DNA of 64,000 nucleotides from Oxalobacter vibrioformis. Its GTDB lineage: Bacteria > Pseudomonadota > Gammaproteobacteria > Burkholderiales > Burkholderiaceae_D. Positions 1 through 4,205 of this stretch are shown piece after piece. The notes under the pieces are model-generated. The model did not search any database. It saw only the letters and a program-made list of their open reading frames with translations, and was not told the DNA's origin. The stretch covers positions 558,001 to 622,000 of the forward strand of contig NZ_CP098242.1 of assembly GCF_027118995.1 (NCBI RefSeq), read 5' to 3'. Positions within the stretch are counted from its first letter, which is position 1. Every line of letters begins with the position of its first letter. The position numbers were made by a program, and so were the translations under genes.

Positions 1-199
1 CACTTTTCCATGCCGCACCTGTCGTTTTTGTCGCGTCTCGCTTGATCTTATTAGTTACCCTTGGATGGGACACTGACAAATCAGAAAGATACGGAAACTC
101 CTTACATTCACCTTCGTGCCCATCCTCTCTGTAACACTTTTTTTCTGAAATATCTTTATACTTCCCTCGAACAGGAAGGTTTTTTTTGCACAGACCCAT
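1..199 (-). CDS. Probable type II restriction endonuclease, N-terminus (partial)
   Basis: Seen: an ATG 2 bp after the controller stop opens a frame of 66 codons with no stop to the window edge. It starts MGLCKKNLPVRGK, has three cysteines near the front (C4, C22, C32) and ends in the basic stretch HPRVTNKIKRDATKTTGAAW. The weak ribosome site GAGG lies within the end of the upstream gene, which suggests translational coupling. Known: in C-protein restriction-modification systems the controller gene lies directly upstream of, and is co-transcribed with, the endonuclease gene. Inference: this is the endonuclease. The HPRVxNKIKRDAT-TTGAAWKS stretch also looks like endonuclease N-termini I recall, but I cannot verify that. 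The rest of the gene is left of the window. Confidence 0.55.
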   Translation of the reverse strand, partial: MGLCKKNLPVRGKYKDISEKKCYREDGHEGECKEFPYLSDLSVSHPRVTNKIKRDATKTTGAAWKS

Positions 200-201
200 C
201 G

Positions 202-423
202 TCAACTTGCCTCATCAAGAACGGCCATTAGCTGGCTTGGTTTGTATTTGAGGGCATACGCAATAGAAACGATATTTTGCAGGGAAACATTTCTTTCTCC
301 CCGCTCAACACTTCCGATATAAGTGCGATGAAGATCACAAAGCGTAGCAAGTTCTTCCTGAGAAAGTCCCAGCTCTAAACGCCTACGGCGTATTTCCCCG
401 CCAAGAAGTTTTGATGACCCCAT
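202..423 (-). CDS. XRE-family controller (C) protein of a restriction-modification system
   Basis: A 73-residue protein that is almost entirely one Cro/C1 helix-turn-helix domain (about residues 8-68). It contains LSQEELATLCDLHRTYIGS followed by VERGERNVSL, the recognition helix and turn typical of C proteins such as C.AhdI and C.Esp1396I. Its length also fits, since C proteins are about 75-100 aa. The start ATG follows a GGGG-rich ribosome site, and 40 bp upstream sits a two-half operator of the C-box type. Known: such proteins bind their own operator as dimers, first activating and then repressing themselves and the endonuclease gene, which delays restriction until methylation is complete. 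A generic phage repressor is the alternative, but the C-boxes and the ORF starting 2 bp downstream favour a controller. Confidence 0.75.
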   Translation of the reverse strand: MGSSKLLGGEIRRRRLELGLSQEELATLCDLHRTYIGSVERGERNVSLQNIVSIAYALKYKPSQLMAVLDEAS

Positions 424-464
424 GACCAGCCCCCCATTAGTGGCTGTTAGATTAGGCGCGTGAT

Positions 465-489
465 GACTATATGTCTACAGACTATAAGT
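465..489 (-). promoter_or_regulatory. C-box operator (two symmetric half-boxes)
   Basis: Plus strand reads GACTATATGTC, then TACA, then GACTATAAGT. On the minus strand this is ACTTATAGTC-TGTA-GACATATAGTC, two near-palindromic boxes with the GACT...AGTC signature and TGTA linker of restriction-modification C-boxes. It lies 42-66 bp upstream of the controller start, where the -35/-10 region is expected. Known: the distal box usually activates and the proximal box represses. The match to the Esp1396I-type arrangement is from memory and was not aligned. Confidence 0.7.
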
Positions 490-539
490 GGCAAGCTGGG
501 CACAAATTTCCGATACACATACTCAACCTCGTTTTGCCT

Positions 540-734
540 TAGCTGTTTGTGTCCGTCGACTTCCCGTAATATGAGACCGGCCAAATTGAAATTTTTTGTA
601 AAACTTTGACACAGGAGACTTAAATGAAGAAGAGCCGATTTACTGAGCATCAGATAGATCGTGTATCAATACTGAAAGAAGCAGATCCTGGGATGAAAGT
701 AGACGATACCTCACGCACCCGACGCGCCACATGA
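540..734 (+). pseudogene. IS3-family orfA transposase remnant
   Basis: A 36-codon frame starts at 624 behind the ribosome site AGGAG. It begins MKKSRFTEHQIDRVSILKEA and continues DPGMKVDD. This is the N-terminus of IS3-family OrfA (usual form MKKSRFTEEQI..ILKEAEAGMKV), with a two-residue insertion and loss of similarity after about base 705. The full OrfA (about 90-100 aa), all of OrfB and the right end are missing. The preceding 80 bp, including CGTAATATGAGACCGGCC, resembles the left terminus of such elements (ACCCACGTAATATGG type), though its exact boundary is not resolved. It sits between the controller gene and unassigned DNA, where a methyltransferase gene could have been expected. Confidence 0.6.
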
Positions 735-1440: not shown

Positions 1441-2220
1441 ATGCTCCTGCACACACTTCGTGGACAACCCTGCTCCCACTGCAACGCCTCTACTACTGAT
1501 CAACGCATTCTTCATGCAGCTGTAGAAACGATGCCAGTCCAGGCTATAAACGGCATTGCCTCGTGGGAAGATGGAAAAAATATTCGGGTATTTGTTACCT
1601 GCAGCATCTGCAACCAACCAAGCATGATGTCGCTGAGGCCAAATGAAGGCTTTCAAGGACAAACAATCAGTCAAAATTTTTATAACCACTCTCTTTTTTT
1701 GAATAGACTCAGAACGGATGAAGTGCTTTTTAGCGGAGGGAAACGACAGTCCGCTCGCACAGTTCGGTCGGACGAACCCGGATTGATTGTTAACGGGATT
1801 TACACTGTTGTTGCCCGCTTCCCAGAATCCAGAGTACAACGCCCCAATGCTGACGACATCCCAAGTGATCTGAATCAGGAAATCACCGACCTTGTGGACA
1901 TACTGGATCGACCTCGATATGCCATGATCGGCTGCCGCCGTGTTCTCGAACGCGCGTGCAAGGCTAAACTTGGAGACGCCGCCAATGGAAAAAACCTGTA
2001 CGACCTCATCGATGCGGTTCTTGCGAATATGGAAACCACAAAGGCGCTTTCTGACTGGGCGCATGACCTGAGGCAACTCGGCAATGACGCAGTGCATGGT
2101 GATGACACCCCCATAACCAAAGAAGACGCCAAACAAGCATATGACCTGACCGTTCTTTTGGTCGACTTGCTTTTTTCCTACCCCAACCGCATCGCGAAAA
2201 TGCGCCAAGCTGGAAAATAG
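1441..2220 (+). CDS. DUF4145 domain protein
   Basis: A 259-aa protein. The N-terminal part has two CxxC knuckles (C11/C14 and C54/C57), a likely zinc ribbon. The C-terminal part (about 150-250) carries the DUF4145 hallmark: CRRVLERACKAKLGD, then LSDWAHDLRQLGNDAVHGDD, ending in a hydrophobic helix. Known: DUF4145 occurs alone or fused to nuclease and helicase modules, often near restriction or other phage-defence genes, but its biochemical role is unsettled. The start at 1441 keeps both knuckles, but its ribosome site is weak. The position inside an integrase-bearing island next to a restriction controller fits an accessory or defence role; that is inference. Confidence 0.75.
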   Translation: MLLHTLRGQPCSHCNASTTDQRILHAAVETMPVQAINGIASWEDGKNIRVFVTCSICNQPSMMSLRPNEGFQGQTISQNFYNHSLFLNRLRTDEVLFSGGKRQSARTVRSDEPGLIVNGIYTVVARFPESRVQRPNADDIPSDLNQEITDLVDILDRPRYAMIGCRRVLERACKAKLGDAANGKNLYDLIDAVLANMETTKALSDWAHDLRQLGNDAVHGDDTPITKEDAKQAYDLTVLLVDLLFSYPNRIAKMRQAGK

Positions 2221-2228
2221 CCCAATAC

Positions 2229-2552
2229 TCATTTTTTCTCCTGACGGCCATAAACCATAAAAGTCAACGCCAGCAGTTCCTGTACCAGGCGATTGACCTC
2301 ATGGCCATGAGCCTGGAGCTGCTTTTTCTCTTTTGCATCAACCTCGCCGTCCACAGTGGCAGCATTGAATGTGCCGGACATAGCGCCCAGCTGCGTATAC
2401 AGATCATTCCACTTTTTAAGAAGCTCATCGTTTCCGACCTCTTCAGCAGCTGGTAGCTTGACGAAAACGCCGCCGGATTCATGGGCTACAGCCTGGGCAA
2501 AGTAAGTGGTTTCTGACAGCGACTGCAAGGTCATGGCCATGTTGACGTTCAT
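2229..2552 (-). CDS. CII/YmfL-like phage regulatory protein, short form
   Basis: A 107-aa protein, MNVNMAMTLQSLSETTYFAQ. The segment AVAHESGGVFVKLPAAEEV followed by LGAMSGTFNAATVDGEVDAKE and a helical tail matches the C-terminal half of the phage CII family (PF06892), where AHELGYV.MPLP precedes a DGRVD..E helix. The DNA-binding helix-turn-helix that forms the N-terminal half of that family is absent; upstream codons in frame (to 2723) are the antisense of another gene. The start at 2552 has a weak site, ACAGG. It is divergent from the plus-strand gene at 2619, as lysogeny regulators often are. It may be a truncated, non-DNA-binding remnant. Confidence 0.5.
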   Translation of the reverse strand: MNVNMAMTLQSLSETTYFAQAVAHESGGVFVKLPAAEEVGNDELLKKWNDLYTQLGAMSGTFNAATVDGEVDAKEKKQLQAHGHEVNRLVQELLALTFMVYGRQEKK

Positions 2553-2618
2553 GGTTTGCCTGTTTTCGTATCCGCCCGTGCTCCCAGCATGATCAACAGG
2601 AAGAGGCAGGGGCTGACC

Positions 2619-2870
2619 ATGACTGAAAAACAAGAGTTTCAGCAGCCAACCACATGCACTTGTGACCAGCGTCTGCATCGTTTTGGCGAATTTACCCAGC
2701 CAGTGAAATTCTGCGAGATCCACGGTGACCCGACCATTCTGACGCTGGCTGACCAGATTGCCGAGCTTCAGCGAAAGGTTGACTTGATCATGCGGGTTGA
2801 CCAGGCGCGCTCAATGTCACGGCCCATAAAACTGGGAAAAAGCGTTGCCAGGAGACCTCGCCATGAATAA
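2619..2870 (+). CDS. Small cysteine-containing phage-type protein, 83 aa
   Basis: MTEKQEFQQPTTCTCDQRLH..., with CTC and a later KFCEIHGD that together look like a small metal-binding knuckle (C13, C15, about C34, H36), then a helix rich in Leu/Ile/Arg and a basic tail. The start at 2619 was chosen over 2556 because AGGCAGGGG precedes it and because the longer frame runs over the divergent CII-like gene start. Its stop overlaps the next gene by 8 bp, so it is the first gene of a three-gene set with the excisionase and integrase. Function not recognised. Confidence 0.55.
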   Translation: MTEKQEFQQPTTCTCDQRLHRFGEFTQPVKFCEIHGDPTILTLADQIAELQRKVDLIMRVDQARSMSRPIKLGKSVARRPRHE

Positions 2871-3225
2871 GGACGATCTGATCACAGCGAAACGAGCCGC
2901 CGAAATACTTGGAATGAAGCCCAGGACAGTCTATGACCGCGCAGCGCCAAACGGCCCTATTCCATGTTATCGTTTTGGGGCAAAGTGCATCCGATTTGAT
3001 GAAAACGAAATCAGGGAATATAGGGAATCATGCCAATTTACTACGATGAAAGAAAACGTCGTTGGCGCTTTACGTTCAACAAGGTTGTCAATGGCCACAG
3101 AATCCGCGTCACAAAATTACTTCCGAAAGCGTGGAATAGAAACCAAGCCCAGGCGTTCGACCAGTCAGAAACGGCAAAGCTATTCGGGGCTGCGACTGGT
3201 ACGATCAAGCAACGCTCTCTCATAG
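2863..3225 (+). CDS. Excisionase/AlpA-like DNA-binding protein
   Basis: Residues 1-55 form a winged-helix excisionase (MerR-type HTH_17) domain: DDLITAKRAAEILGMKPRTV, then the YRFGAKCIRFDENEIREY wing and last helix. The start has an excellent AGGAG 8 nt upstream. Known: such proteins bend att-site DNA and steer the partner integrase toward excision. Odd: the typical protein ends here (60-75 aa), but this frame continues to 120 residues. The last about 65 residues overlap the integrase gene out of frame by 196 bp and are basic and low in hydrophobics, so they may be a read-on tail rather than a domain. Confidence 0.65.
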   Translation: MNKDDLITAKRAAEILGMKPRTVYDRAAPNGPIPCYRFGAKCIRFDENEIREYRESCQFTTMKENVVGALRSTRLSMATESASQNYFRKRGIETKPRRSTSQKRQSYSGLRLVRSSNALS

Positions 3226-4019
3226 GCGACGCGGTTGTTGCCTACTGCCAGCACAGATGCCCAAGCCTGAAAGAAGGTGAGGAAATTGAAAAGGAACTGG
3301 CAAGGCTTCACGGATATTATGACGGCCGTTTCATTGATGAATTGCCGGAAGTTGCTCGTGAATATATCGAAGCAGAATGTGACCGCGTAACACCGGCAAC
3401 CCTCAGAAACAAGCTATCGTACCTGCGCGCTGCCTGCCGGTACGCGCAAAAATATCACGGTATGGATAACGTTCCTGACATTGACCTTCCGAGGGTGAGG
3501 AATGAACGCAAGGAATACCTTGTCCGGCATGAAATGATCCAGGTTGCGCGCAGTTGCAAAACACAGAGAAATGGCGCATGGCGATACGCCCGTGCAATGG
3601 TGCGCATTGCATTTTACTCCGGGATGAGGATCAGCGAAATCATGAGGATAGACAATAAAGATCGTCTCGGCCGCTATACCGAAATTGTTGAGGATGGTTT
3701 CATTCTGTACGACACGAAAAACGGTGAGGATCGGTTTGTACCGATGCATCCAAAGCTGAAGGTTTTGCTGAAATATCTGCCTATCCCCTACTCAGTAACA
3801 TGGATGCAGCAGATTGTCCGGCGCGCCATGGATGAAGCAGGGTTTGAGCACATTACCTTCCATGATCTGAGGCATAGCACAGCATCCAACCTGATAAATG
3901 ATGATTCAGACTTGTATAAGGTCGGACTGCTGCTTGGCCACAAAGACCCGCGCAGCACCCAGCGGTATGCGCACCTGGCGAAGAAAACAATGAATGAGTT
4001 TATTCGCAAGCTGGGATAA
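3030..4019 (+). CDS. Tyrosine recombinase / phage-type integrase
   Basis: A 329-aa integrase. The N-terminal arm-binding strand (MPIYYDERKRRWRFTF) is followed by a SAM-like core-binding domain (about 60-150) and a catalytic domain with all expected residues: R200 (SGMRISE), K230, H278-xx-R281 (HDLRHS), H304 (LLGHKD) and nucleophile Y313 (RYAHL). It should catalyse site-specific integration and excision of the island. It is the last gene before tRNA-Ser and points at the tRNA 3' end 96 bp away, the standard geometry for an element inserted in a tRNA gene. It appears intact. The other att copy is not visible in the window. Confidence 0.93.
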   Translation: MPIYYDERKRRWRFTFNKVVNGHRIRVTKLLPKAWNRNQAQAFDQSETAKLFGAATGTIKQRSLIGDAVVAYCQHRCPSLKEGEEIEKELARLHGYYDGRFIDELPEVAREYIEAECDRVTPATLRNKLSYLRAACRYAQKYHGMDNVPDIDLPRVRNERKEYLVRHEMIQVARSCKTQRNGAWRYARAMVRIAFYSGMRISEIMRIDNKDRLGRYTEIVEDGFILYDTKNGEDRFVPMHPKLKVLLKYLPIPYSVTWMQQIVRRAMDEAGFEHITFHDLRHSTASNLINDDSDLYKVGLLLGHKDPRSTQRYAHLAKKTMNEFIRKLG

Positions 4020-4061
4020 ATTTTTTTGTGCAGAAATGGCAAAAAAATGCACACCCCCATG

Positions 4062-4088
4062 AAAAAATGCCACTTTTCAGCGGCATTA
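4062..4088 (-). terminator. Intrinsic terminator downstream of tRNA-Ser
   Basis: On the minus strand the stem AATGCC...GGCATT (4066-4071 with 4082-4087) is followed by TTTTTT. It lies 27 bp past the tRNA 3' end, so it should end the tRNA transcript. If the att core lies in the tRNA, this terminator came with the integrated element. Confidence 0.65.
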
Positions 4089-4114
4089 TGAATGTCGGTA
4101 ACTTATTGATTTAT

Positions 4115-4205
4115 TGGCGGAAAGGGTGGGATTTGAACCCACGATGAGCTATTAACCCATACCGAATTTCGAGTCCGGCGCATTCGACCTCTCTGCCACC
4201 TTTCC
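4115..4205 (-). tRNA. tRNA-Ser (anticodon CGA)
   Basis: A 91-nt tRNA with encoded CCA. The acceptor stem GGAAAGG/CCTTTCC, discriminator G, an anticodon stem CCGGA/TTCGG enclosing loop CTCGAAA (anticodon CGA, codon UCG), a long class II variable arm and a T-arm with GGTTCAAATCC are all readable. A -10 box TATAAT on the minus strand lies at 4238-4243, and a terminator follows at 4062-4088. Its 3' half is the likely attachment site of the island whose integrase ends at 4019. Confidence 0.95.

Follow-up and report, generated by a model that had tools for sequence, protein, structure and literature searches.

DraIII, a Type IIP restriction-modification (R-M) system of Deinococcus radiophilus, has CACNNNGTG as its target and an HNH nuclease of known structure (PDB 4L0K). 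In the sections of the published account available to us, alanine changes at the eight zinc ligands, at H183 and at N202 of DraIII abolish activity (PMC3996161). No description of DraIII together with a controller protein was found in the open-licence literature.

Two brakes on methylase synthesis are known, each from separate systems: the controller (C) protein from Esp1396I, and methylation by the system's own enzyme from AhdI and CfrBI. In the parts of the papers drawn on here, C of Esp1396I represses the methylase (PMC3758141, PMC11736437) and the TATA of its operator OR sits in the -35 (PMC3758141), while the methylase promoters of CfrBI, LlaDII and AhdI are methylated at the system's own site (PMC12707154, PMC6237814, PMC5333194, PMC4824078, PMC3874152). 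One of these sources sets out AhdI, Esp1396I and EcoRV, in the portion consulted, as three separate ways (PMC11736437). Within the excerpts of the open-licence literature consulted, no description of both brakes on one methylase promoter was found.

A DraIII-family locus at the edge of the window

The window is the whole stretch of Oxalobacter vibrioformis DNA that was analysed, 64,000 nucleotides long, and corresponds to C1:558001-622000 of a genome consisting of a single contig of 2,606,300 bp. To its left two 20 kb stretches were read, one of which, L002, is numbered as the window position plus 18000. The genome sequence on that side places the start of the window inside an intact-looking Type II R-M system (Table 1). 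An earlier sequence-only reading of the window had proposed a restriction system under C-protein control, in which C and R share an operon preceded by a two-box operator, and the longer sequence supports this.

Table 1. Positions of the restriction locus and of neighbouring features, numbered on the window, on the genome contig (C1) or on the stretch L002
Feature	Position	Strand	Details
Endonuclease gene, 5' part	window 1-199	-	ATG at 199, 226 aa; runs on to C1:557519 (L002:17519)
C (controller) gene, 73 aa	window 202-423	-	HTH_3; PADLOC 'Control_protein' E=1.4e-21; C.BclI and C.AhdI structures
C/R operator	window 465-490	-	box CACTTATAGTC (490-480), TGTA, box GACATATAGTC (475-465); sequence read directly
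Predicted methylase promoter, -35	C1:555538-555543	+	promoter scan
Own-target site CACATCGTG	C1:555542-555550		overlaps end of -35; motif search
Putative C-box TACTTATAGTG	C1:555557-555567		covers -10; motif search (ACTTATAGT at C1:555558-555566)
Predicted methylase promoter, -10	C1:555561-555566	+	promoter scan
Methylase gene, 641 aa	C1:555579 (GTG) or 555588 (ATG) to 557504; L002:15579/15588-17504	+	wholly left of window
IS481 family transposase, full-length frame	L002:14256-15266	+	above NCBIfam cut-off; about 0.3 kb before methylase start
Transposase N-terminal remnant	L002:15280-15419	-	HTH_Tnp_1 E=2.2e-05
Transposase N-terminal remnant	window 624-731	+	HTH_Tnp_1 E=0.005, below Pfam cut-off
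Phage_CP76 phage-like regulator, HTH_17 frame, tyrosine integrase (3030-4019)	window 2229-4205		beside tRNA-Ser(cga) 4115-4205

By its sequence the endonuclease is an HNH nuclease of the DraIII family. It matches family PF21586 with E=5.3e-80 (267.6 bits against a Pfam cut-off of 27) and the DraIII structure 4l0k with E=2.7e-73, 223 residues being aligned to 4l0k residues 1-224. All of the zinc and catalytic residues are shared with DraIII, the two systems being compared through the endonuclease alone, and about half of the residues differ as judged from the alignment. The ATG start lies 2 bp past the C stop codon, and an alternative TTG start at 205, which would give 228 aa, overlaps that codon. 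The open frame seen running off the window 2 bp past the C gene does continue as proposed. It reaches C1:557519 at 226-228 aa and so has no early stop; the earlier reading had reckoned with a frame that ended within a few dozen codons or belonged to a non-restriction family, and what lies there is a DraIII-family HNH endonuclease.

The 73-aa protein encoded ahead of it had been assigned to the C.AhdI/C.Esp1396I type, which its HTH_3 and Control_protein matches and its closest solved structures, C.BclI (4.8e-13) and C.AhdI (5.9e-13), confirm. Its gene stands right before the endonuclease gene with the two-box operator upstream, as in AhdI/Esp1396I-type systems, and the operator had been read correctly save for an omitted first C. 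The C protein and the endonuclease would be expressed from one operon, with C binding the two boxes at its own promoter, where it would first activate and then repress as in Esp1396I. A search with the operator pattern RACTTATAGTS gave no match in the genome because the real boxes start with C or T, and NACTTATAGTN was used as the C-box pattern in its place. The sequence ACTTATAGT occurs 3 times on both strands of the 2,606,300 bp, against 59 times for the same letters read backwards, and this rarity rules out a chance operator. Of the three copies, one is in the C/R promoter, one covers the methylase promoter's -10 and one, at C1:288971, was placed inside a gene by inspection of the printed sequence; the earlier reading had reckoned with an operator that is common in the genome, and there are three copies, two of them in the R-M system. 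Scanning the C/R promoter gave TTGCCA/17/TATAGT within the boxes (1 found, 2.4 in shuffles), and its position is less certain than that of the methylase promoter.

By its domains the methylase belongs to the N6-adenine type and is fused to a specificity domain (N6_Mtase, 9.8e-30; Type I-like Methylase_S, 1.6e-05). As in other Type II systems, the partner methylase is present at full length, and it is convergent with the endonuclease gene, leaving 14 bp between the gene ends. Esp1396I likewise has its methylase convergent with C and R, and its endonuclease and methylase families differ from those found here.

These two genes bear directly on whether the locus is a relic, with a lost methylase or a dead endonuclease. 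Both had been suggested from the window, together with the alternative that the methylase lies beyond the endonuclease, and reading left of base 1 proved this alternative to be the right one (C1:555588-557504). Over its whole length the methylase can be aligned with eight relatives, with DPACGT and NPPF in the same columns, and the full-length endonuclease keeps 10 of 10 residues whose alanine change inactivated DraIII; C6, C24, H30, C34, C158, C161, H199, C202, H184 and N203 occupy the matching positions and are invariant in 14 relatives. Transposase remnants flank the restriction block on both sides and two true relics exist elsewhere in the family, as would suit decay, but in view of the two genes we consider a relic extremely improbable. 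Point mutations that inactivate either enzyme and are invisible in its motifs may be present, and both enzymes are predicted to be active. The identity and layout of the locus as a complete DraIII-family system are near certain.

The G+C content is 41.5% in the methylase gene and 45.7% in the C-R part, lower than the 50.8% of the window, which suggests transfer, and the system was probably acquired in this way. An IS3 remnant had been reported to the right of the C gene; an HTH_Tnp_1 match gives a transposase remnant there weak support, whereas the name IS3 came from no search. Further into the window, the region from 2229 to 4205 resembles an island at a tRNA gene. A search for a second attachment copy of the tRNA-Ser end gave none that was convincing; the strongest match elsewhere spanned 23 bases at 87%. 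A DUF4145 protein at window 1441-2220 (+) has a weak match to PADLOC PD-T7-4 (E=1.1e-04) and is a possible further defence gene.

The methylase promoter and its two predicted brakes

The predicted methylase promoter, TTGACA/17/TATAGT, scores 11/12 in a scan that found 1 such promoter against 0.6 in shuffles. A putative C-box covers its -10; systems of the Esp1396I type have a C-box in the methylase promoter as well. At the other end CACATCGTG has the form of the DraIII target, so that an own site lies in the core promoter as in systems of the AhdI/CfrBI type, provided that the system shares the DraIII target CACNNNGTG. The only A in the CAC of CACATCGTG is the sixth base of TTGACA. By analogy with DraIII, an enzyme about 50% identical from which the specificity is taken, the system likely cuts and methylates CACNNNGTG. 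The genome shows no clear avoidance of this sequence (328 occurrences vs 350 for the reversed pattern), and the count neither supports nor excludes activity.

Together these elements make a two-brake methylase promoter a well-supported prediction. Binding of C to the one box over the -10 would repress the methylase, and a second brake would act through the own-target copy overlapping the -35, where methylation would be expected on the final A of TTGACA. Upon entry into a naive host the methylase promoter would be bare and strong. As genome methylation rises the promoter would become methylated as well, and as C accumulates it would be occluded, so that methylase synthesis would go down while the endonuclease goes up. 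If methylation were then diluted, for the methylase promoter this would mean being bare again, and the methylase would recover.

The arrangement combines features of systems described separately. Esp1396I is alike in having C boxes at the C/R promoter (operators OL and OR) and one at the methylase promoter (OM), but the excerpts consulted do not mention an own-target site in its methylase promoter, such as is predicted here. For AhdI, whose C protein is among the two structures closest to ours, the methylase promoter is reported to be methylated at the system's own site, and a predicted own-target site occurs in the methylase promoter here too; C is not reported, in the parts seen, to act on that promoter, whereas here a C-box covers the -10. 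CfrBI and LlaDII are described in the passages available as sensing methylation through a copy of their recognition sequence in the methylase promoter, where a predicted own-target site lies here as well. The CfrBI genes, in the same passages, are divergent with overlapping promoters, while the present locus has convergent genes, promoters that are separate and, in addition, a C protein.

The probable own-target site across the family

To compare these promoters we assembled relatives of the locus. A protein search yielded 745 homologues, 120 of them listed, and DNA loci were taken from genome contigs (32), a viral contig (L047), a conjugative Phaeobacter plasmid (L049) and two genomes (L053 and L057). 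The family set comprises 37 loci including L002, with L048, L050-L052, L054-L056, L058 and L059 excluded as repeats. C and R are adjacent on one strand in 37/37 loci and the methylase is convergent in 32/37; in several relatives a contig end truncates it, and in L036 it is spread over two frames. Many of the relatives, though not all, show the two operator boxes ahead of their C gene. Three of the five loci without a convergent methylase end inside R (L041, L042 and L046), and the other two have a short R, L043 being cut after residue 74 and L017 missing about 15 C-terminal residues. In these two the C gene is present and no methylase match was found in about 6 kb of downstream sequence, which fits the earlier argument that loss of the methylase needs a dead endonuclease, for L017 provided that its shortened enzyme is inactive. 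L017 and L043 are relic loci and indicate a possible order of decay.

The wider searches added little. Genome searches found the locus in 1/369, 2/388, 1/391, 2/385 and 1/244 genomes, the starting genome being counted each time, and gave two new loci, with a readable methylase promoter only in L053, where the site is absent. Among phage records searched for the family there was no match, and among plasmid records one. Four alignments used to find further members in viral contigs recovered one contig only, L047 (the same as L058 and L059), and viral contig scans gave two distant methylases at 29% identity. A strict composite promoter pattern, which fits only 6/26 family promoters, matched one viral contig inside a frame of 493 aa; that contig has no C, R or M match, and the hit was rejected as chance.

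The region before the methylase (213-260 bp) could be read in 26 of the 37 loci. It contains CACNNNGTG in 18/26, compared with a mean of 1.6 and a maximum of 6/26 in 1000 dinucleotide shuffles, and CACNNNGTG ranks first among 640 gapped palindromes in these regions. The second-ranked palindrome, ACA-N3-TGT, occurs in 13 loci and overlaps CACNNNGTG in 10 of the 13. Before the C gene of the same loci (regions of 142-230 bp) the site occurs in 1/26, the exception being L031, which carries CACGATGTG there as well. Most relatives examined probably carry the system's own target in the methylase promoter, which could thereby detect whether protection of the DNA is already in place.

The site shares one register in 17 loci, ending 10 nt before a -10-like hexamer, and the spacer is 17 bp wherever TTGACA occurs. 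The CAC and GTG are invariant in the 17-row display by choice, so the fair figure is 17/26. The three middle bases take 8 forms among the 17 in-register loci. This bears on a plainer scheme in the style of Esp1396I, in which C alone controls both promoters and CACNNNGTG has no regulatory role. Esp1396I does work in that way, the C-box over the -10 would serve it, and 8/26 family loci manage without the site. However, in 17/26 loci the six recognition bases are preserved in a single register, with variable bases between them. TTGA is in register in 11/17 of these loci and the remaining 6/17 keep the recognition bases without it, so the -35 does not explain why they are kept. Control by C alone is on this evidence unlikely.

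The same anatomy would be expected if the site were an operator bound by the methylase or endonuclease as a protein repressor, with methylation irrelevant, or if the endonuclease cut the unmethylated site and switched the methylase gene off in failing cells. A core-promoter site would double as a binding site, and AhdI is modelled in the portion of one paper available to us as repression by a methylase dimer (PMC11736437), unlike two accounts that name methylation. The sequence offers nothing against these schemes, as their anatomy equals that of methylation sensing; we hold them to be quite improbable. We think it probable that the locus is a complete Type IIP R-M system of the DraIII family in which both the C protein and the promoter's own methylation lower the activity of the methylase promoter. 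The judgement is tempered because no more than 13/17 in-register loci have TATAAT, TATAGT or CATAGT as the -10 hexamer.

A clade without the site and its meaning

The full site is lacking in L019, L023, L026, L032, L035, L037, L038 and L053 (8/26), and in L027 it is displaced downstream of the -10, with CATTTCGTG in register. In-register remnants are CAT-N3-GTG in L026 and L027, GTG in L037 and L038, and CAC in L053; L023 has neither half. The anchor was set by eye for these six loci, and L019, L032 and L035 have no anchor. We had predicted beforehand that L053 and L057 would hold the site; L053 lacks it and L057 ends before the methylase start. In a tree of the endonucleases L053, L037, L038, L023, L032 and L035 form one branch (support 95/92), a placement of L053 that was seen only after the prediction had failed. 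The tree label 'none' requires 3 changes vs 7.0 in shuffles and the label 'site' 4 vs 7.6. The relatives are not independent, since six of the losses are one clade and there are near-copies among the loci with a site (L022/L049 and L020/L021).

A third element resembling a C-box, CTACYYATAnAAT, follows the usual pair in the downstream direction in the C/R promoter of L023, L032, L035, L037, L038 and L053, the whole of the no-site clade, and of L028, where the methylase start is not covered. This pattern finds no third box in the other 20 readable loci, and L019 and L026 have neither the site nor the third box. On balance we lean slightly towards the view that most of the DraIII family share a two-input methylase promoter and that one clade, mostly Chloroflexota, swapped the methylation input for a third C-box at the C/R promoter. 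Under the same two-input reading the no-site clade would represent a timing circuit that has been rewired naturally, a view that we favour by a similarly narrow measure.

Natural variants of the family with and without the site make the value of the methylation input directly testable. For restriction systems not yet characterised, the footprint in the promoter may also allow the target to be revealed from sequence alone. If both brakes act, the system measures actual protection in addition to the level of its regulator, which would help to explain its presence in distant phyla.
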